20,100 bases of DNA from the IMG/VR virus record IMGVR_UViG_3300025849_000289, positions 1-20,100 of that record. One strand, given 5' to 3'. The translations under genes and the position numbers were made by a program. The stretch is from a virus. Positions within the stretch are counted from its first letter, which is position 1, and every line of letters starts with the position of its first letter. The notes under the pieces are model-generated. The model saw only the letters and a list, made by a program, of their open reading frames with translations, was not told where the DNA came from and ran no database searches. Below are positions 5,878-18,398 of this stretch, piece by piece.

Positions 5878-6216
5878 TTAATAAATACTAATTAAATTAT
5901 TTAGAATAGGAATAATAACATTATCTCTTTGCCTATAAGTTGAACACTCTTCGTCATCGCAATAGATAGCCATCTCATCTATTTCAAATAAATATTCGTA
6001 AGTGCCATCATCGGTTCGCATATAACCGTATTCCTCGTAAGTTTCGGCATCGTGGATAGTTTTCCTAACGCAGATAACATCTGCAAAAATTTCTATACAA
6101 CCGATAGTCCAATATAACTCCTCTCGATGTATCTCATCATCACCCATTGGGATCTCCTTTACTTTTAAATCGTGAAGGATATCTTTTAATTCTAAATCTG
6201 TAAATAAATCTTTCAT
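5878..6216 (-). CDS. Acidic hypothetical protein, 112 aa
   Basis: The frame is open from 6240, but I chose the ATG at 6216 (MKDLFTDLELKD), because the bases before it (TTAACTTAACCACAAAAAAG) match the A-rich leader seen before several other small genes here; the longer version would also overlap the upstream stop. The protein is very acidic in its C-terminal half (IDEMAIYCDDEECS) and has no signal peptide or transmembrane part. Highly acidic small phage proteins are sometimes DNA mimics or host inhibitors, but that is only a possibility and I recognise no family. Confidence 0.6.
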   Translation of the reverse strand: MKDLFTDLELKDILHDLKVKEIPMGDDEIHREELYWTIGCIEIFADVICVRKTIHDAETYEEYGYMRTDDGTYEYLFEIDEMAIYCDDEECSTYRQRDNVIIPILNNLISIY

Positions 6217-6236
6217 CTTTTTTGTGGTTAAGTTAA

Positions 6237-6425
6237 TCAATATTTTTTTATTAATTCTAGATCGTAATAATCTGCTACATAATTAATGTGCTTCTGAGTA
6301 GTGACTGACCAATATCCTAACTGAACTAATTTACCTCCTTGTATTAAGGCAACCTTTGTAGAATAACTCCACACCTCGTTATTGTGGATTCTTAAGTTTT
6401 GCTTGTATTTTTTTAGTGTAATCAT
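6237..6425 (-). CDS. Hypothetical protein, 62 aa
   Basis: A 62-residue basic protein beginning MITLKKYKQNLRIHNNEVWS and ending DYYDLELIKKY. It carries a typical local leader (TTAACTTAAACAAACAAAA) and a G5/C5 hairpin upstream, so it is a self-contained cassette like its neighbours. There is no transmembrane segment or Cys cluster. The aromatic-rich pattern (STKVALIQGGKLVQLGYWS) suggests a small beta-fold. No family is recognised. Confidence 0.55.
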   Translation of the reverse strand: MITLKKYKQNLRIHNNEVWSYSTKVALIQGGKLVQLGYWSVTTQKHINYVADYYDLELIKKY

Positions 6426-6471: not shown

Positions 6472-6723
6472 TTAATTGTTAAATGTAAAAATAAAGTCTT
6501 TAGGTATTCTTTTTTTACATTCTGATCCTACCCAATGAAATCCTTGATCATCAATACCTTGATCTTCATCAGTATTTATAATATTACCATTTGTTAAAAG
6601 ATGTACAAAATACTTCTCGTTTTTAACTTCTTTGTTGCAACAAATGCACTCCATATCATAACCTCCTTCATCTTGAATTTTACTATAAAAATTCTCTATA
6701 TCAATTTCTTTAAAATTATTCAT
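6472..6723 (-). CDS. Small Cys-rich, possibly zinc-binding protein, 83 aa
   Basis: This 83-residue protein has Cys26, Cys28 and Cys29 (MECICCNKEV) and Cys69 (GSECKKRIP), with a His at 41, which could make one zinc site. The arrangement 'CxxCxK... HxVGSxCKK' looks like a treble-clef type small domain. It is acidic between the Cys groups (INTDEDQGIDDQ). The gene has a leader TTAACTTAATCAAAACAGAT directly before ATG and hairpins on both sides. I recognise the general zinc-ribbon look but no named family; the role may be nucleic-acid or protein binding. Confidence 0.6.
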   Translation of the reverse strand: MNNFKEIDIENFYSKIQDEGGYDMECICCNKEVKNEKYFVHLLTNGNIINTDEDQGIDDQGFHWVGSECKKRIPKDFIFTFNN

Positions 6724-6745
6724 ATCTGTTTTGATTAAGTTAAAA

Positions 6746-6768: not shown

Positions 6769-6966
6769 TTAGTATACTTTAATTATTTCGTGTGGTTCAA
6801 CTGAAAATCCTTCAGATGCATAACCTCCATCTATTCCTTTTGTATTGTATTTAATAATTGATTTATTAAATTTTGGTATATAAATGCTATATATTTTTCT
6901 AGTATATACATCATTTGTTCCTTCAATTTGAAACCTTATTCTTTGTCCTACTTTTAAATTTTCCAT
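6769..6966 (-). CDS. Small beta-rich (SH3-like) hypothetical protein, 65 aa
   Basis: A 65-residue protein opening MENLKVGQRIRFQIEG, a pattern that often begins a small SH3-like or KOW-like barrel, and closing with SVEPHEIIKVY. The ATG follows an A-rich leader (AATTAAACAAACAAAAACAAA). It is the first gene after the noncoding stretch that follows terL. The gene at 13625-13777 has a similar look but no clear sequence identity. Function unknown; the SH3-like label is an inference from the hydrophobic pattern. Confidence 0.55.
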   Translation of the reverse strand: MENLKVGQRIRFQIEGTNDVYTRKIYSIYIPKFNKSIIKYNTKGIDGGYASEGFSVEPHEIIKVY

Positions 6967-8304: not shown

Positions 8305-8635
8305 TTATTTCTACTTTAAAATTACTAGGCATTCCATCCGCTCCTGTTATCTCTTGCCTCTCAACGTATCCTCTTTTCTTTCCTCTAGTCTTAAGGAAGA
8401 AGATTATTTCAGCAGTCCTATTACTATCGATATTTTCAAACAATTTACTTTCAACAAAGTCTAAAGCGATATCATCTACACTTACTACTTGCTCAGCAAA
8501 TTCCTCATCTGTCTTAACCCATTGATAAAAAGTTGAAGTTCCAACTCCCGCTTTTTTACAAGCAGTTGTTACAACCCCTAATGATTTTCTTAAGGCTTCA
8601 AGTACAGCCTTTTTATTGTGTCCCGTTTTGTCCAT
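8276..8635 (-). CDS. terS: Terminase small subunit (putative)
   Basis: A 119-residue protein with an N-terminal helix-turn-helix: VLEALRKSLGVVTTACKKAG followed by VGTSTFYQWVKTDEEFAEQV, a pattern common in phage small terminase subunits, which recognise the packaging site on concatemeric DNA. The C-terminal part (ITGADGMPSNFKVEII) probably reaches the large subunit. It sits directly before terL with overlapping frames and 23 nt inside the end of the cytosine methyltransferase gene. This chain suggests that modification and packaging proteins are made together. Confidence 0.85.
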   Translation of the reverse strand: MDKTGHNKKAVLEALRKSLGVVTTACKKAGVGTSTFYQWVKTDEEFAEQVVSVDDIALDFVESKLFENIDSNRTAEIIFFLKTRGKKRGYVERQEITGADGMPSNFKVEIIDKIEDSEN

Positions 8636-9656
8636 TTTTTAACCATTGATTATATATTTGATTACTTATATTTGCCATCATTAAAGGTAGTACAGATCTT
8701 CCCATCGTTGTTACGGGATTAGTATCTAAGAAATTATAATCCTTCGGGAATGTTGATAATAGCCTAACCTCTTCTTTATTTAGTTTTCTTTTATAGATAG
8801 GATGCACTACACTATAAGCACCCGCATTTCCTGTTGTAGCGGTAATAGTAGGACAAGGCTTATTTAAAGAAGGCTTTACTAAATTAAAATGTTTCTTGTG
8901 ACTAGACCCTATTTCAACTTCACCCCAAAGTTTATCTAAAGAGTATTTAGAAATGTCGTTTTCAAATATACTCCAATACTTTTTAGTAACATCAAAATTA
9001 ACTTTAGGGACATCGAAATTTAGATTCAGTTTCTTATTCTTAAGATCCTTTCGTGATCCTATTATAAATACTCTATTCCTTAACTGAGGTAAACCCATAG
9101 ATGCTGCAAATAAAGAAAAGACTTGTATATCATAGTCATCAGATAGTCTATTAATAACATTAAGAACGTAAATCTTTGCATTACCTTTTATTATCCCGCT
9201 TACATTTTCAAGTAGAAAAACTTTTGGATTTAGTTTTTTTATTGTATCCGAATAGATATAAACCAAATCATCCTTTACTTGTTTAATCCCTTCGTATAAA
9301 GACTTCTTTCCCCAAATATCTTCTCTAGATCCCGATGTAGAAAATGCTGCGCAAGGAGGAGATCCATCTAGTATATCTAAATTGTATAGTTCTTTTGGTA
9401 AGTCAGTTCTTTTATTGAAATCTCTAATATCCTCTAAATAAAAATGTTTAGGGTTTAGATTCTTTTTATAGATCTTACTAAAATGCTCAGTAAACTCAAC
9501 ACCACCTAAGTGATCGAATCCCGCTAACTTATAACCCATTGTAGAACCTCCCCCGCAAACGAAAGTTCCAAAGACTTTTTTATTATGCTTCTTTACCTTA
9601 AGGTCATCTGTTAAATTCCATTCTAAAGGAAAAATATTTTCAGTTACTTTCTGCAT
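8613..9656 (-). CDS. Cytosine-C5 DNA methyltransferase with unusual motif X (GRSV); candidate carboxymethyltransferase
   Basis: This 347-residue enzyme has the ordered C5-methyltransferase motifs: I (TFVCGGGSTMGYKLAGF, 31-47), IV (GSPPCAAFS with catalytic Cys102), VI (LLENV, 148-152), VIII (QLRNR, 191-195), IX (PCPTITA, 267-273) and X (319-322). Motif X is normally GNSV or GNAV; here it is G-R-S-V, with Arg320 (codon AGA) in place of the conserved Asn. In the engineered variants Dcm N436K and M.MpeI N374K, which as I recall change this Asn, a basic residue lets the enzyme use carboxy-SAM and make 5-carboxymethylcytosine. The gene overlaps a CmoA-like gene by 13 nt and terS by 23 nt. No restriction enzyme is nearby, so it looks like an orphan anti-restriction or hypermodification enzyme. 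Confidence 0.9.
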   Translation of the reverse strand: MQKVTENIFPLEWNLTDDLKVKKHNKKVFGTFVCGGGSTMGYKLAGFDHLGGVEFTEHFSKIYKKNLNPKHFYLEDIRDFNKRTDLPKELYNLDILDGSPPCAAFSTSGSREDIWGKKSLYEGIKQVKDDLVYIYSDTIKKLNPKVFLLENVSGIIKGNAKIYVLNVINRLSDDYDIQVFSLFAASMGLPQLRNRVFIIGSRKDLKNKKLNLNFDVPKVNFDVTKKYWSIFENDISKYSLDKLWGEVEIGSSHKKHFNLVKPSLNKPCPTITATTGNAGAYSVVHPIYKRKLNKEEVRLLSTFPKDYNFLDTNPVTTMGRSVLPLMMANISNQIYNQWLKNGQNGTQ

Positions 9657-10285
9657 ATATATCCTTTAAAATTTAGGGATTGAAAGAAGGGTTCTATTTT
9701 ATTAAATCCCGCTTCTTTAAGTAGAAGAATATTCTCAGAAGAATTTAATGAGTTCATTATATTTCTTAAGGAAAACTCCTTATCTAAAATTTCCTTTGCA
9801 GAAAAGGTTTCTTGCTTATTAGTATAATTAGCAAAAGTAAACACTTCTTGAATTACCCCATCCTCACAGATCTCTTTCTCGCAAAATATAAAAGCACCGT
9901 TAGTATTTAAAGAGTTATAAACCTTAGTTAAAATATCTAGTCTTTTATTAATGTCAATAAACTGAAGAGTAAACACCGAGATGATTAAGTTTGTTTTCAT
10001 TATCTCGAATTCATCTTTAGTTATATCCTCTTTAATTAGATTGCAATTCGTTTTTATAAAATTAGAATCAACTACATCATATCCAATACAACCCACATTA
10101 TAGGCTTTATTTATCTTATCTAATAACCTTCCCGAAGTGCAACCAAGATCAATTACTATTGTATTCTCTTTAATAAAAAAAGAACACATATTTAAAATTA
10201 AATAATCTAGTAAATCATAACCCTTAATAGAGTTATTAATGTGATTATCAAAGTTTTCAATACTATCAAAACTAAACTTTTCCAT
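9644..10285 (-). CDS. CmoA-like SAM-dependent enzyme (candidate carboxy-SAM synthase)
   Basis: A class I SAM-binding protein of 213 residues with motif I VIDLGCTSGRLLDKI (44-58). It aligns from memory over nearly its whole length with E. coli CmoA (247 aa): F..I..SI.GYD near 15-24, FTLQF at 105-109, VYNSLNTNGAFIFCEK at 122-137, LRNIM at 173-177, LLLKEAGF at 187-194 and FFQSLNFKGYI at 200-210. CmoA turns SAM plus prephenate into carboxy-SAM for tRNA wobble modification by CmoB; no CmoB is seen here. Arg199 of E. coli CmoA, which binds the carboxylate, corresponds to Glu170, while an Arg lies one helical turn later (Arg174), so the product may differ. The gene overlaps both its neighbours, ParB-like and the C5 methyltransferase. 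Confidence 0.75.
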   Translation of the reverse strand: MEKFSFDSIENFDNHINNSIKGYDLLDYLILNMCSFFIKENTIVIDLGCTSGRLLDKINKAYNVGCIGYDVVDSNFIKTNCNLIKEDITKDEFEIMKTNLIISVFTLQFIDINKRLDILTKVYNSLNTNGAFIFCEKEICEDGVIQEVFTFANYTNKQETFSAKEILDKEFSLRNIMNSLNSSENILLLKEAGFNKIEPFFQSLNFKGYICRK

Positions 10286-12147: not shown

Positions 12148-12845
12148 TCGATTCTTAGTTTTAATAAGTTATAACATTCACTATACTTTTCTTTTGCCTT
12201 CCCTCTATACCTTTCTTTAAAAAGTAAAAAAAGTTTTTTCCTATACTGATAATCAGTAACGCAATCTTTAAAATATTTTTCAGCAAATTTTTTTCCCTTA
12301 CCAAAAAAGTAATTGACATTGTCTGATTGGTCTCCGACAATCATCTGTTCGTAAAAATTATACATTGCCTCTTCTTTAGTTAAGTTACATAACTCCTTCG
12401 TGTGGTACCTATAAACTAATGCGGGAAATTGAAGATAGTCTTTATCTATACTAACTATCATTACTTGATCTCTTCCCCAAACTTCACTCAGCTTATTCCA
12501 ATAGATAGCAACTAAATCATCTGTCTCCATTCCTACTGCACAATGCGAATCGTAAGTGTCTCTAACGTAATTGTGAATTTCCTGTAAGAGAGGAGGCTTT
12601 TTTTGAGTAACTCTATTTGCCTTATATTTTTTAGTTATAAGTTTCCTAAAGTTTGCCCTTCCATCATTAAAGACTAGGACTTGAGTTACATTAAATTGAT
12701 CGGTTAAGTCGTTAATAATACTTTGAAAAACCTCATCAAACTTATAAGTAACATCTTCAATCTTCTCAAAAAACATTCCCTCCTCTCCCTTCGCAGAATA
12801 GCAACTTGCAAAAATTAAACTATCTGCATCTACTAATAAAATCAC
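12144..12845 (-). CDS. 5'-3' exonuclease (FEN/T7 gp6-like)
   Basis: A 233-residue member of the flap endonuclease/5' exonuclease group. Metal ligands: Asp6 and Asp8 in LLVDADSL, Glu107, Asp109 and Asp110 in METDDLVA, Asp134 and Asp136 in SIDKDYLQ, Asp172 and Asp175 in GDQSDN. The last group is followed by the GKGKKFAEKYF stretch expected for the helix-hairpin-helix DNA clamp. The whole catalytic set is present. In phages such enzymes remove RNA primers, degrade host DNA or create single-strand ends for the annealing protein (ERF, encoded upstream at 16200-16802). The gene overlaps both neighbours by 4 nt. Confidence 0.88.
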   Translation of the reverse strand: MILLVDADSLIFASCYSAKGEEGMFFEKIEDVTYKFDEVFQSIINDLTDQFNVTQVLVFNDGRANFRKLITKKYKANRVTQKKPPLLQEIHNYVRDTYDSHCAVGMETDDLVAIYWNKLSEVWGRDQVMIVSIDKDYLQFPALVYRYHTKELCNLTKEEAMYNFYEQMIVGDQSDNVNYFFGKGKKFAEKYFKDCVTDYQYRKKLFLLFKERYRGKAKEKYSECYNLLKLRIE

Positions 12846-13096
12846 TTTATAGGAATTTGTAAAAAAGGTCCATTAAAATTCATTACGTATTCTTCATCAA
12901 TATCAAAGCCTTCTTTTGTCTCAGCATTAAAAAAGGTTAATCTCTCCTTAATAAGTTCTATAAAAAACATATGCTGATAAGGTGTCGTGTTAATGTAGAA
13001 ATCAACTACATCTTGATAGTCATTTTTTAAAGTAGCCTCTTTTGCGGGGTTAACTTTTCCTTCTTTTATCTTTGGTTCAAATTTTTTGTTTTTCAT
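12842..13096 (-). CDS. Hypothetical protein, 84 aa
   Basis: The frame is open from 13138, but I chose the ATG at 13096 (MKNKKFEPKIKEGKVNPAKE), because the bases before it (TTAAAAACAGATATA) resemble the leader found in front of other genes here. A basic, unstructured N-terminus is followed by a more folded part with FYINTTPYQHMFFIELIKER. It overlaps the exonuclease start by 4 nt, so both are probably translated in a coupled way. No family recognised. Confidence 0.6.
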   Translation of the reverse strand: MKNKKFEPKIKEGKVNPAKEATLKNDYQDVVDFYINTTPYQHMFFIELIKERLTFFNAETKEGFDIDEEYVMNFNGPFLQIPIK

Positions 13097-13241
13097 TATA
13101 TCTGTTTTTAAGTTGTAAATAATCAAGCCAATAGTCAAACCAATTAAATTCTGATGACTTCCTAGCTTTTATATATTTCTTATAGGCTGCTTTTACTTCC
13201 CATTCTTGAATATCTTTTTCGATAATCCATTCGTATGACAT
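13077..13241 (-). CDS. Small aromatic-rich protein, 54 aa (overlapping frame)
   Basis: A 54-codon frame (MSYEWIIEKDIQEWEVKAAY, later NWFDYWLDYLQLKNRYNEKQ) that fills the gap between the zinc-ribbon gene and the 84-aa gene. It overlaps the end of the zinc-ribbon gene by 62 nt in another frame and the next start by 20 nt. The composition (many Trp, Tyr, Glu, Lys) is protein-like and unlike a random shadow. Without homologs, it is not clear whether this frame or the C-terminal end of the zinc-ribbon gene is the selected one. Confidence 0.45.
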   Translation of the reverse strand: MSYEWIIEKDIQEWEVKAAYKKYIKARKSSEFNWFDYWLDYLQLKNRYNEKQKI

Positions 13242-13404
13242 CGTTCAATAATTTAGTTGGATAACATTCTTGACAAACTACAAAATCGGGCAATGACTCT
13301 AGATCCTCCGAAGAAGATGCGTGATTCCCGCATTTAGGACACTCGATAACATATAACCCGCTATCGATTTTTTTTCTTTCTCTAAGTAATTTAGATCCGC
13401 TCAT
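13180..13404 (-). CDS. Zinc-ribbon-like protein, 74 aa
   Basis: Two CxxC pairs, CPKC at 22-25 and CQEC at about 44-47, are separated by about 20 residues, a standard rubredoxin-knuckle zinc ribbon. Short basic parts flank it (SKLLRERKKID at the start, RMDYRKRYSR at the end), suitable for nucleic-acid contact. The gene starts 4 nt inside the end of the previous one. The C-terminal 20 residues overlap another frame, which may be a real gene. The zinc-ribbon identification is from the Cys pattern; the partner is unknown. Confidence 0.6.
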   Translation of the reverse strand: MSGSKLLRERKKIDSGLYVIECPKCGNHASSSEDLESLPDFVVCQECYPTKLLNDVIRMDYRKRYSRMGSKSSL

Positions 13405-13613
13405 ACAAATAAATTATACTTGTCTAAACTCTCAGAAAACTCTCTGACTTCCTTGTCGTGCTTTGCAACTAAGCCTACACAAAACTCCTTAACCTCATCT
13501 ACGTTTTGAATACTCAAATTATTGTTAGATGAAAATTCAGCGGAAACTCCCGAATTAAAGGAGTAACGAATAATGGTATTTAATACATCTTCTGTAATGG
13601 TGTAACTTTTCAT
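13401..13613 (-). CDS. Hypothetical protein, 70 aa
   Basis: A 70-residue protein starting MKSYTITEDVLNTIIRYSFN and ending EFSESLDKYNLFV. It follows the leader AAAAAAAGCAGAT that closely matches the one before the next upstream gene (AAATAAAGCAGAT). It is probably a small alpha/beta protein, with no Cys pair and no membrane part. It overlaps the zinc-ribbon gene by 4 nt. No family recognised. Confidence 0.55.
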   Translation of the reverse strand: MKSYTITEDVLNTIIRYSFNSGVSAEFSSNNNLSIQNVDEVKEFCVGLVAKHDKEVREFSESLDKYNLFV

Positions 13614-13624
13614 ATCTGCTTTTT

Positions 13625-13777
13625 TTAAATTTCTGTTAAATCTGATTCGTGGAAAGACTCTGTATATCTTCCTATTCTTACAATAACGAAAGAACCGACA
13701 ATCTCTTCAACTGTTCCTTTTTTTCCTCCGTAACTATTAGAGATTTTAACTCTAGATCCTATACTTAACTTTTCCAT
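13625..13777 (-). CDS. KOW/SH3-like small protein, 50 aa
   Basis: A 50-codon frame in the gap between the nuclease-like gene and the 70-aa gene. The product begins MEKLSIGSRVKISNSYGGKK and continues GTVEEIVGSFVIVRIG, a clear KOW-like signature (GxxVxI ... GGxxGTVxxI) seen in small SH3-type barrels that bind RNA or DNA. The start is at ATG 13777 after the leader TTAAATAAAGCAGAT. A role in RNA binding is possible but not proven. Confidence 0.6.
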   Translation of the reverse strand: MEKLSIGSRVKISNSYGGKKGTVEEIVGSFVIVRIGRYTESFHESDLTEI

Positions 13778-13836
13778 ATCTGCTTTATTTAAGTTTGTTT
13801 GATATTGTAAATATAAACAAAAAACTTTATAAAAAG

Positions 13837-14434: not shown

Positions 14435-14577
14435 CTCCTTATACCGCTTATATTGTTTAGTTTTTTTCTCCTTTCATCACAACCGCAATCTACTCCTGTC
14501 TTTCTACTCAAGAAATCAACAACCGCCTTAATGCCTGTATACTTAGTGATGTAAAAAATTAAATCTCCTAGTTTCAT
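14428..14577 (-). CDS. Small conserved phage protein with CGC motif, 49 aa
   Basis: A frame of 49 codons starting in an ATGA overlap with the stop of the sigma factor gene (14577-14574) and ending inside the start of the next gene. The product begins MKLGDLIFYITKYTGIKAVV and contains DCGCDERRKKLN. I recall the same arrangement (F.TKYTGIK...DCGCD.RR..LN) in small proteins of other Bacteroidetes phages. Two Cys close together next to basic residues could bind a metal. The perfect couplings on both sides support it strongly. Confidence 0.7.
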   Translation of the reverse strand: MKLGDLIFYITKYTGIKAVVDFLSRKTGVDCGCDERRKKLNNISGIRRW

Positions 14578-15062
14578 AGTATTTTTTTTAGTTTTTCTTT
14601 AACTCTTTTAAAGGTATTGTAAAGAGAGTAATAAGGTATCTTAGTCTTTCTTGCTAAGTCGGCAATACTACTCCCATCATCAATGATTTCGTAAACCTTC
14701 TTATCGTACCAAAATAGTTGTTCTATCTCTACGTTAACCTTTTCTAAGGCTTTATAGTAATCAGTATCATCATCGATATTTACTTCCTCTTTAACGGTTT
14801 CTATATTGACAATATAAACCTTATTCTCTTTGCGTTTTAGATCCAAAAAGAGATTTCGAAGAACTCTAAAAACATAGGAGTAATTAAAATCATTATCACC
14901 ATATTTGATGTCTAATCCTTCACTTAGTTTTCTTTGAATCTTGATATACATTTCTTGTACTATATCTTCAGCGGTTTCTTTATTGCAACCAAAAGATTTA
15001 ACGATCTTAACCCAAGTCTTGTGATCATCCGCTATCTGATTTAAAATTTTTAAGTAGGTCAT
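14574..15062 (-). CDS. Small RNA polymerase sigma factor (sigma-70/ECF-like)
   Basis: A two-domain sigma factor of 162 residues. Region 2 is visible as AEDIVQEMYIKIQRKL (31-46) and YSYVFRVLRNLFLDLKRKEN (61-80); region 4 helix-turn-helix as SIADLARKTKIPYYSLYNTF near 127-146 with a basic end (KRVKEKLKKIL). I chose the ATG at 15062, which has GGAGAAG at a good distance; an upstream TTG at 15074 is less likely. It overlaps the ATPase gene by 38 nt. It probably redirects the host polymerase to middle or late phage promoters. Which promoters it uses cannot be decided here. Confidence 0.85.
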   Translation of the reverse strand: MTYLKILNQIADDHKTWVKIVKSFGCNKETAEDIVQEMYIKIQRKLSEGLDIKYGDNDFNYSYVFRVLRNLFLDLKRKENKVYIVNIETVKEEVNIDDDTDYYKALEKVNVEIEQLFWYDKKVYEIIDDGSSIADLARKTKIPYYSLYNTFKRVKEKLKKIL

Positions 15063-15858
15063 ATTCTTCTCCAATTACTTCGGGAAGTCCTATCTTGTTG
15101 ATCTTGAACGAAAACTTTTCGAAAGGAAACCCTCTGCTCCTCTTACAAGATACATTAACCCGTTCTTTGTGAACTGTGTTTAATTCTAGTTCAATTTGAG
15201 TTTCGCATTTCTTTTCTAAGAAAGATCCGAGATGCCCCGTAGGTTTAGAAGATCCGAAGTTAGAATGAATAACCGTTACAATGTGACACTTATACTTAGC
15301 AGTCCATTTCATTAGGTACTGCACGCATTGATTGCTTTGCTCCAAATCATTAACATCAGAAACAAGATCAGCTATTCCATCAATAATCACTAAACCAACA
15401 TCTTTAATCTGATCTAACGATTGCTCAATAACTTGTATCTTCTCAAAATAACTTAACTCCCTTAAAGCAAATGTATAATATTTTTCGGTAACTGATGACA
15501 TATCTACCGCTCTTCGGAAAACCCTAGAGGAATGAAAGTCACTTTGTTCTGTATCAAAATGAATTAAACTTCGATCTTGCCTATTTCCTCTTATCTCTCC
15601 GCTGAAATGATTTTCCCCTAAGTAGGCTGCCGAAAGCAAACTAATAAAGAATGTCTTTTTAGACTTTGGAGGTGCTTGAACAAAACTAAAATTGCCATAA
15701 GTACCTATTGGAATCTTAACAACCTCATTACCTCTCTTAGTCTTTAATACCGTATTACCTAAAGAGATTGCAATTGGTGGATACTTAACAATGTCTAGCG
15801 GGTTTATTTGACATTTCTTGAGCAATGCCTTTCTCTGTTCTATTGAAAGTTTCTTCAT
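15025..15858 (-). CDS. RecA-like AAA ATPase (RepA/helicase-type)
   Basis: A 277-residue P-loop ATPase of the RecA/DnaB type. A degenerate Walker A APPKSKKTFF lies at 62-71, a sensor-like FDTEQSDFHS at 101-110, Walker B VGLVIIDGIADL at 154-165 and a conserved VIHSNFGSSKPTGHLGSF at 196-213. The last resembles the 'H.NK....RGS' segment of plasmid RepA and AAA_25 proteins. In these phages it is thought to act as replication or recombination helicase. It begins about 12 nt after a strong hairpin-T9 terminator and ends overlapping the sigma factor gene. Confidence 0.8.
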   Translation of the reverse strand: MKKLSIEQRKALLKKCQINPLDIVKYPPIAISLGNTVLKTKRGNEVVKIPIGTYGNFSFVQAPPKSKKTFFISLLSAAYLGENHFSGEIRGNRQDRSLIHFDTEQSDFHSSRVFRRAVDMSSVTEKYYTFALRELSYFEKIQVIEQSLDQIKDVGLVIIDGIADLVSDVNDLEQSNQCVQYLMKWTAKYKCHIVTVIHSNFGSSKPTGHLGSFLEKKCETQIELELNTVHKERVNVSCKRSRGFPFEKFSFKINKIGLPEVIGEEYDLLKNFKSDSG

Positions 15859-15870
15859 ATAACTGTGGTT

Positions 15871-17125: not shown

Positions 17126-17320
17126 TTATTTGATTAAATACCATTCTTTATAAAACCCTTTATAAACCTTTCTTTGACCAATAACCTTATATAAGATTCC
17201 TGTTCCTCCGCTTGTAATTACATAACAACCGCCTTTATAAACACCCTCCTTAAAAGTGATGGGTTTAAATCCTTTCTTCATCCCTATCATTGGGATTCTT
17301 AATTTTTGTCGTACTTTCAT
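17126..17320 (-). CDS. Small basic hypothetical protein, 64 aa
   Basis: A basic 64-residue protein, MKVRQKLRIPMIGMKKGFKP at the start and YKVIGQRKVYKGFYKEWYLIK at the end, with a glycine-rich middle (GGCYVITSGGTGI) typical of a small beta barrel. It has its own leader (CTTAACAGAACAGAA) and a G5/C5 hairpin upstream. Together with the two flanking genes it forms a cassette of small proteins. It may bind nucleic acid, but there is no named family. Confidence 0.55.
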   Translation of the reverse strand: MKVRQKLRIPMIGMKKGFKPITFKEGVYKGGCYVITSGGTGILYKVIGQRKVYKGFYKEWYLIK

Positions 17321-17338
17321 TTCTGTTCTGTTAAGTAA

Positions 17339-17357
17339 AGGGGGTGGTTAACCCCCT
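17339..17357 (-). terminator. G5/C5 hairpin between small genes
   Basis: The minus strand forms AGGGGGT-TAACC-ACCCCCT: a 7-bp stem with a 5-nt loop. It lies after the 94-aa gene and before the 64-aa gene, as in the cassettes near 6450 and 6750. A T run is short, so terminator strength is uncertain. Confidence 0.5.
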
Positions 17358-17648: not shown

Positions 17649-17732
17649 CTTGTTTTTGTTTAGGTTAAATTAATAATAGAGTGAAGATATAAAGTTTTTA
17701 TTTAATAAAAAAGTGTTTAGACAAAAAAACAC

Positions 17733-17763
17733 AAAAAAAAAGGAGAAAAAATTAATTTTCCCC
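17733..17763 (-). terminator. Rho-independent terminator of the small RNA gene
   Basis: The RNA from the minus strand would be GGGGAAAA-UUAAUU-UUUUCUCC followed by U9: an 8-bp stem (one G-U pair) and a nine-base U tail. It is about 35 nt after a 9-bp hairpin and 70-100 nt after the promoter at 17833-17863. Confidence 0.85.
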
Positions 17764-17828
17764 TTCCGAACAGATATTGAGTAGTAGCTCTAACTACTCA
17801 AAGAAATATACCACCACAGTTTATTTAC
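17733..17828 (-). ncRNA. Candidate phage small RNA with own promoter and terminator (~95 nt)
   Basis: A strong Bacteroidetes promoter (TTTG-N19-TATCTTTG) is followed by about 95 bases without a convincing frame and by a Rho-independent terminator. Within it, TTGAGTAGT-TAGAGCT-ACTACTCAA (17801-17777) forms a perfect 9-bp stem with a 7-nt loop. Between hairpin and terminator lies the single-stranded UAUCUGUUCGGAA. The start of transcription is inferred to be about 5 nt after the -7 box. Antisense target or protein partner is unknown; I do not recognise a named RNA family. Confidence 0.6.
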
Positions 17829-17832
17829 GAAA

Positions 17833-17863
17833 CAAAGATACTAATTATAATTCATTTACCAAA
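17833..17863 (-). promoter_or_regulatory. Complete Bacteroidetes-type promoter TTTG-N19-TATCTTTG
   Basis: The minus strand carries TTTG at 17863-17860, exactly 19 bases of spacer and TATCTTTG at 17840-17833. Both boxes match the consensus for the primary sigma factor of Bacteroidetes, and the spacing is optimal. The -33 box is inside the last codons of ninG. It drives the candidate small RNA. Confidence 0.75.
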
Positions 17864-18225
17864 TCTTTATAAGTAGTAATAAGATCCTCAAGTTCATTTG
17901 TGGACAACTTGACTAAGAAATTACCTTTTAAAGCTAACTCATTTGCAGTACCCTCTCCGTAAATTTCATCAAGTCTTTTCCCAAAGATGTATTGTTCTCC
18001 TTGACTAAATATATTACACTTAGCACATTGAACTTGGCAATTAAGTTTATCCCACCTTGTTGAGTATTTTCTTCGACTTTGAAAGTGACCGCATTGAAGA
18101 TTCTTCCAATGATCTAGTTTACCACAAGTCAAGCACTCAGCTATATCATCTTTAGCGTATCTTCTTCTAATATATATAGAAAATATATTATCTAATTTCT
18201 TTACTATTTTACTTCTTTTTACCAT
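17845..18225 (-). CDS. ninG: NinG/Rap recombination protein
   Basis: A 126-residue NinG homologue (lambda Rap, recombination adept with plasmid). The zinc and nuclease-like signatures are present: CLTCGK (Cys31, Cys34), CGHFQSRRKYSTRWD (Cys45, His47, then Arg57-Trp58-Asp59) and QCAKCN (Cys67, Cys70), followed by the usual FSQGEQY and LDEIYG. Rap is a structure-specific nuclease acting on branched DNA. Its length is shorter than lambda NinG (about 200 residues) but typical for the family in Bacteroidetes phages. The last codons contain the -33 box of the following small RNA promoter. Confidence 0.9.
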   Translation of the reverse strand: MVKRSKIVKKLDNIFSIYIRRRYAKDDIAECLTCGKLDHWKNLQCGHFQSRRKYSTRWDKLNCQVQCAKCNIFSQGEQYIFGKRLDEIYGEGTANELALKGNFLVKLSTNELEDLITTYKDLVNEL

Positions 18226-18398
18226 TTAGCTTAATTAGCTATATAATATATACCCCCCTTGAGGGGGGTTATTAATTAGCTAATATATAGTGAAAATATT
18301 TTCTTTTTTCAAAGAACATTTATCTGATCCAAGCAACTTCCATCTTTTATAGGTTTTGCAAGTTTGGTCTTTACGACAAGGCAAAGGTAACAAAAAAA
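18226..18398. promoter_or_regulatory. Noncoding regulatory region upstream of ninG: hairpin, direct repeats, -7 box
   Basis: This 173-base stretch has no convincing gene. A perfect hairpin CCCCCC-TTGA-GGGGGG at 18253-18268 is flanked by two direct repeats of TTAATTAGCT (18231-18240 and 18272-18281), and a 12-bp palindrome GAAAATATTTTC follows at 18292-18303. At 18382-18389 the minus strand has TACCTTTG, a good Bacteroidetes -7 box, with no clear -33 box. Two tiny frames (7 and 15 codons) overlap in the leader (TAAATG). It looks like a promoter with a structured leader controlling ninG. Confidence 0.55.

Follow-up and report, generated by a model that had tools for sequence, protein, structure and literature searches.

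A predicted small RNA gene behind ninG in marine phages, with seeds complementary to the start sites of phage genes

Genomic context of the unit

What is encoded in the short interval that follows ninG in this viral genome, and on which RNAs would its product act? The initial annotation read the interval as a self-contained phage small RNA (sRNA) gene whose product could regulate host mRNAs or phage mRNAs, or bind a defence protein. The window analysed here, i.e. the whole stretch of DNA under study, is an entire viral record of 20.1 kb, marked linear, and its transcription is mostly on the minus strand. On this strand the order is M15 peptidase/endolysin, small lysis-region genes, ninG, the sRNA unit, small genes, Erf-like annealing protein, AAA ATPase, sigma-like protein, 5'-3' exonuclease and terminase, which places the unit after the end of the lysis/ninG block and ahead of the replication block. 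The host probably belongs to the Bacteroidota, judging by the promoter type and by distant protein matches to Flavobacterium phages. No integrase family was found in 22 related (incomplete) records.

Architecture of the unit

The unit and its immediate neighbours comprise the following features.

17845..18225, minus strand: ninG/Rap-like endonuclease gene (Pfam PF05766, phrog_5034), the constant upstream neighbour in all homologs
17833..17863, minus strand: Bacteroidota-type promoter TTTG-N19-TATCTTTG, a pattern match in the sequence
17733..17828, minus strand: predicted sRNA of about 95 nt, its start inferred from the -7 box, with a predicted fold
17804..17821, minus strand: conserved 5' element AACTGTGGTGGTATATTT containing seed 1, from homolog alignment, fold and start-site match counts
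17801-17777, minus strand: 9-bp hairpin TTGAGTAGT-TAGAGCT-ACTACTCAA, with nine perfect pairs
17769..17777, minus strand: seed 2, AUAUCUGUU, predicted to be single-stranded; identified from homologs, complementarity to AACAGATAT and the predicted fold
17733..17767, minus strand: intrinsic terminator (stem 17767-17742, T9 17741-17733), conserved in homologs
17681..17689, minus strand: TATCTTCAC, which may be the -7 box of a second promoter serving the small-gene cassette downstream, seen in the sequence and in better-conserved versions in homologs

The promoter, 9-bp hairpin and U9 terminator noted at the outset are all confirmed, on the same strand and in the right order (minus strand, 17863-17733). 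The TTTG of the promoter occupies 17863-17860 and is followed, after a 19-nt spacer, by TATCTTTG at 17840-17833. The position of the unit between ninG and the small-gene cassette holds overall, with the correction that the -33 box TTTG lies within the 3' end of ninG. The stretch AUAUCUGUUC separates the hairpin from the terminator, and the predicted fold of the sRNA has a z-score of -3.1 relative to dinucleotide shuffles. The absence of a convincing coding frame also stands: there is no ORF of at least 40 aa between 17648 and 17845, and GTG-initiated frames are not kept between homologs, so that the unit contains no conserved coding frame. A peptide reading beginning GTG GTG GTA TAT was rejected, being open in locus L029, closed by a TAG stop in the window, and not conserved in frame.

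No Rfam 15 family exceeds its gathering threshold in the window (the top sub-threshold match is DapZ, with 20 bits against 56), and ARAGORN identifies no tRNA or tmRNA in loci L001, L002 and L003. A tRNA-like reading of the L002 hairpin (GGGTAGAGC...) was likewise discarded, given the negative ARAGORN result and the absence of this hairpin from the other homologs. The promoter match by itself is no better than chance (one found against 0.89 expected in the window), and the case for the unit therefore rests on conservation.

Conservation within the window lineage and beyond

Homologs were collected by a ninG search, which yielded L002, and by pattern scans, which yielded further loci; duplicates and chance matches were removed. 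The resulting 12 distinct RNAs of the window lineage (that of the window and 11 further versions) are every one located directly 3' of ninG. Common to the 12 aligned RNAs are the TAnnTTTG -7 box, CTGTGGTGGTATATTT, ATCTGTT and the terminator, and the 16-nt 5' element and AUCUGUU are kept in the 11 further distinct versions. Since the scan pattern was CTGTGGTGGTATATTT itself, its invariance is partly by construction, L002 being independent in that it was found by ninG. The flanking promoter, hairpin and terminator lie outside the search pattern, as does seed 2 in two of the pattern scans.

The hairpin is kept as a structure, its sequence differing in almost every lineage while pairing is maintained. 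Because this variable element is misaligned by MAFFT/RNAalifold, hairpins were tested individually. Eight distinct hairpins were each compared with 500 shuffles, of which at least 496 fold less well, and hairpin arms combined with their own partner reach a mean of -9.1 kcal/mol, compared with -4.6 kcal/mol for the partners of others. Loops and flanks are identical in L039 and L041, which differ by two compensatory pair changes. One finding that would have refuted the proposed gene, i.e. homologs in which hairpin and promoter are not conserved, was not encountered, as promoter, terminator and hairpin structure are all retained.

More distant relatives were found by a NinG-profile scan. In these phages the slot after ninG holds a shorter unit of promoter, GUUCUGUU and terminator, in which TAnnTTTG is followed by about 5 nt, (T)TCTGTTT and a terminator with U7-9; its RNA would measure about 50-60 nt, with the seed at the 5' end. 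Among the matches to TATATTTG-N2-5-GTTCTGTTT listed for viral contigs, 20 of 65 distinct ones combine an upstream ninG with a T7 run no more than 75 nt away, two have the T7 run only, and none has ninG only. Conservation of the whole unit (11 further homologs, and 20 of the 65 matches listed with ninG and T7) is thus above chance. The initial argument that chance can hardly account for the elements is upheld for the conserved whole unit, and fails for the promoter match taken alone. Judged by this comparative evidence, the unit is a self-contained small RNA gene of marine phages, as had been proposed; its expression has not been shown.

A pattern scan of genome contigs returned no unit, and a NinG scan returned a single unrelated MAG locus. 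In the isolated phages inspected, from Flavobacterium, Polaribacter, Riemerella and Bacteroides, another CDS comes close behind ninG, which leaves no slot for the unit; TTTG-N17-21-TAnnTTTG has no match in Flavobacterium phage 11b, and no isolated phage with the unit is present among those inspected. Many loci in the series L101-L139 have ninG and then a terminator, without promoter, seed or start-site motifs, and constitute natural negative controls.

Seed 2 and the start-site motifs

The unpaired stretch singled out beforehand for target prediction, UAUCUGUUCGGAA, includes the main seed. Both seeds are mostly predicted to be unpaired, with an unpaired probability for seed 2 of 0.89 in the predicted fold of the window RNA; in G002-G004 seed 2 is partly paired by prediction (unpaired probability 0.28-0.38). 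The exact complement of AUAUCUGUU, AACAGATAT(G), lies on the start codons of several genes of the window and its relatives. The predicted target sites in the window, including those of seed 1, are as follows.

6722..6730, minus strand: predicted target AACAGATAT at the start of gene 6472-6723 (duplex with the seed 2 region, -15.6 kcal/mol)
13098..13106, minus strand: predicted target AACAGATAT, a seed 2 complement, before the ATG at 13096 (gene 12842-13096)
13612..13618, minus strand: predicted target (G)CAGATAT at the start of gene 13401-13613, from the sequence
13776..13782, minus strand: predicted target (G)CAGATAT at the start of gene 13625-13777, from the sequence
15861..15869, minus strand: predicted seed 1 target ACCACAGTT before the AAA ATPase gene 15025-15858 (9 contiguous pairs, -14.1 kcal/mol)
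17322..17332, minus strand: weaker predicted target AACAGAACAGA before gene 17126-17320, from the sequence
6223..6228, minus strand: possible seed 1 site ACCACA before the ATG at 6216, inside ORF 5878-6240, from the sequence

Motifs were counted in start regions (-20 to +4), with gene starts taken from our own scripted ORF calls. AACAGATA is present at 16 of 490 starts in 12 window-lineage genomes, and at 0 of 909 in 25 others (p = 4e-8). In the 11 genomes of the GUUCUGUU lineage its place as start-site motif is taken by AACAGAAC, found at 16 of 386 starts; the window lineage has AACAGAAC at 4 of 490 starts, and the A4 lineage at 0 of 387. The motif genes have 12 distinct N-termini for AACAGATA in the window lineage and 16 for AACAGAAC. 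Both motifs tend to stand at a fixed distance from the start codon (AACAGATA at -7 in 12 of 16 cases, AACAGAAC at -10 in 9 of 16). Of 17 window-lineage records 13 contain the pattern AACAGATATG, as does 1 of 25 others; the corresponding numbers for the reversed control pattern are 0 and 1.

When the letters of the sRNA seed are permuted, the observed count of 9-mer matches is never reached in 300 trials (W, A1). Among its own anagrams AACAGATA ranks 2 of 336, i.e. not first. In a held-out set of 11 new contigs with the GUUCUGUU unit, AACAGAAC is present at 10 of 246 starts, against a mean of 0.35 for its anagrams, and ranks first of 168. It is absent from all 788 starts of contigs that have a promoter-like match and no unit, and neither motif occurs among the 569 genes of 29 ninG contigs without the unit. 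The genomes compared are related metagenomic contigs, so the counts are not fully independent, and the seeds of the window lineage are short, with 7-9 nt for most targets. On this evidence of complementarity, pairing between seeds and start sites is well supported; that it takes place in the cell is inferred. Of the three kinds of partner initially envisaged, the evidence points to phage mRNAs.

It could be argued that AACAGATA and AACAGAAC are DNA sites of a phage protein, with an inverse copy in the sRNA region and only incidental pairing, and such protein sites could likewise vary between lineages. However, the sites are phased to the ATG and, at gene starts, occur only in sense orientation, which fits RNA and not DNA; moreover, the unit that contains the copy has a promoter and a terminator of its own, and the copy lies in a part predicted to be single-stranded. 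We regard protein sites as extremely improbable.

The A2, A3 and A4 lineages keep the unit, but matches to their own seed are hardly or not at all enriched at start sites; their targets may differ. The conserved units of the A4 lineage without clear phage start-site motifs would suit an sRNA that acts mainly on a host RNA or host defence protein, with phage start-site complementarity being secondary, and the variable hairpin could then be a protein-binding or decoy part. Such a role in the host seems very unlikely given the start-site covariation in two lineages and in the held-out set.

Two other leads were not retained. CCCCTTT in start regions is explained by the terminators of preceding genes. 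Complementarity to the first downstream gene only is greater for own than for swapped pairs (z = -4.2), but fits poorly in several lineages, and was therefore replaced by the multi-gene test.

Seed 1 and the AAA ATPase start

In the window lineage seed 1, UGUGGU, is in or near a small predicted hairpin loop, and its complement ACCACA(G) follows a similar distribution: ACCACA is present at 16 of 490 starts of the window lineage against 1 of 909 in others (p = 5e-7), with the AAA ATPase start region among the genes concerned. Across ATPase orthologs from 37 genomes, complementarity is greater for the own sRNA than for swapped ones (summed runs of 270 against 227 +/- 7), a test that is inflated by relatedness, and the fit between ATPase start and sRNA uses different segments in different lineages.

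The ATPase starts of G008, G009, G010, G013 and G016 carry CACCACA just before the ATG and ACAGATAT just after it, an order of the two seed sites that precludes one simple antiparallel duplex with one sRNA. In the A4 records G026, G028, G035, G037, G042 and G040 the ATPase gene starts with ATGCAAAACAAA, complementary over 9 nt to UUUGUUUUG in the sRNA of this lineage; the complement reaches 11 nt in G040, where it reads ACAAAGACAAA. It is possible that A4 relies on another seed, within the first codons.

Distribution of the predicted targets

Motif genes cluster downstream of the unit: 45 of 53 lie within 0-6.5 kb, as compared with 322 of 823 other genes (p = 4e-11), and none of the 53 is on the opposite strand. 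They are mostly small and without a known family, and also include the ATPase and the exonuclease. Being on the same strand as all 53 motif genes, and 0.1-6.5 kb from most of them, the sRNA does not belong to the cis-antisense class (OOP, sar, c4). It has the attributes of a trans-acting base-pairing sRNA, i.e. an accessible seed complementary to several non-overlapping mRNAs, with covariation (predicted pairing), its own promoter and intrinsic terminator, and no conserved coding frame.

The lambda pR' leader (6S RNA) is a short terminated transcript from a promoter near ninG that forms the leader of the late operon. By analogy, the RNA might chiefly be a leader or attenuator of the downstream operon, through which an antitermination factor permits read-through: the operon is preceded by a promoter, a short RNA and a strongly conserved terminator, close to ninG as in lambda. 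Unlike the lambda leader, the unit appears to be followed by a separate promoter, a second promoter-like sequence being present after the terminator in most homologs, and has complementarity to other genes. A leader would leave the covariation of seeds and start sites at genes kilobases away unexplained, and no Q-like protein was identified, albeit without a systematic search. We therefore give it little credence.

Proposed mode of action

The explanation that we consider likely is a trans-acting base-pairing sRNA that targets the initiation regions of the phage's own early genes, most probably for repression; its transcription, pairing in the cell, direction of effect and timing are inferred. 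What is observed is the gene architecture, its conservation, the maintenance of the hairpin, lineage-specific complementarity, start-codon phasing and clustering. Under this model a host-type promoter overlapping the end of ninG would give a transcript of about 95 nt ending at its own terminator. The hairpin next to seed 2 would have a structural role only, leaving seed 2 single-stranded before the terminator. Seeds 2 and 1 would pair with the initiation regions of several phage genes, mostly in the early/replication region downstream, and pairing at about -13 to +3 would hinder initiation.

Translational repression is favoured on the grounds that pairing would extend over the start codon or right up to it. 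Bacteroidota hosts lack Shine-Dalgarno-led initiation, and in Flavobacterium johnsoniae initiation is tuned by the structure of the start region and by adenines at -3, -6, -12 and -13 (PMC6847099), which supports the model, as this is the same region that sRNA pairing would cover. Damping or shut-off of early genes in the course of infection is plausible, given an apparently constitutive promoter and a gene copy number that increases with replication.

Activating sRNAs exist in bacteria, and the same RNA and pairing could instead activate or stabilise its targets, by opening structure or shielding 5' ends, so that early genes would be switched on together. The pairing evidence for this is identical to that for repression. 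Nothing directly separates the two, there being no RNA or protein data. However, pairing in the window lineage usually includes the first bases of the AUG (AACAGATA at -7 in 12 of 16), which normally blocks the ribosome, and the target leaders are A-rich, without obvious structure. Activation thus appears unlikely, though not negligible.

Relation to known systems

The closest counterpart in function may be T4 RegA, a protein repressor of about 30 mRNAs whose sites overlap the AUG or lie just 5' of it (PMC3014915). RegA is a single phage regulator of the initiation regions of many of the phage's own early or middle genes, as the sRNA would be. RegA is, however, a protein with loosely defined A+U-rich sites (PMC3014915), whereas the seeds of the sRNA are exact complements of the target motifs, and both differ in concert from lineage to lineage.

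Among phage RNAs, a 2025 review (PMC12197685) covers OOP, aQ, sar, c4, 24B_1, VpdS and PreS in its sections on replication/lysogeny and gene regulation. P22 sar and P1/P7 c4 are antisense RNAs that block translation by pairing near the ribosome-binding site, but are described there as controlling the antirepressor gene of temperate phages, as opposed to several scattered genes here, in relatives for which those 22 incomplete records yielded no integrase. Lambda OOP and aQ are also short phage RNAs controlling the phage's own genes, but are antisense to an overlapping gene, whereas the targets predicted here are on the same strand, distant, and would be reached through short seeds. VpdS (phage VP882) and PreS (lambda) are likewise trans-acting, VpdS being reported to affect phage and host mRNA levels, but are Hfq-dependent. 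As far as those sections of the review go, no shared start-codon motif is reported for these two, and none on many phage genes for any of the sRNAs described (PMC12197685).

In the open-licence literature on Bacteroidota phages, to which the search was limited, no such RNA was found, nor did we find a start-site control switch by sRNA described for such phages. Most of what is known of regulatory RNAs in phages comes from temperate systems of enterobacteria, in which the targets number one or a few; in the present case a single tiny RNA gene appears to coordinate many start sites in probable Bacteroidota phages. The unit provides seed-target pairs that can be put to sharp tests, and represents a natural experiment on how seeds are switched. 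It may also help to address early/late timing in marine phages that are abundant. It is conceivable, though we hold this with rather less than even confidence, that many Bacteroidota phages carry after ninG an RNA counterpart of RegA, an early-gene switch whose seed and motifs are rewritten together as a private code of each lineage. Were this the case, lineage-specific interference between co-infecting phages would be possible.

Other features of the window

The small protein encoded at 14574-15074 (minus strand) matches sigma-70 region 2 (PF04542, 26.7 bits, cut-off 24) and has a weak phrog sigma-factor match as well; it is possibly a phage sigma factor for later promoters, going by these matches. 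Two strong intergenic G5-6/C5-6 hairpins are located at 18252-18269 and 17339-17357. Similar hairpins precede many early genes in relatives, and early genes thus seem to be separated by internal terminators. A 65-aa gene at 6769-6966 (minus strand, MENLKVGQRIRFQIEGTNDVYT...) lies about 11 kb from the sRNA unit in the window, and near-identical starts are found directly downstream of the unit in L029, L039 and L044, which marks it as a mobile small gene. From reading of the sequence only, 8613-9656 (minus strand) likely encodes a C5 cytosine methyltransferase (motifs GSPPCAAFS and ENVSG), and is followed by a methyltransferase-like protein at 9644-10285 (minus strand).
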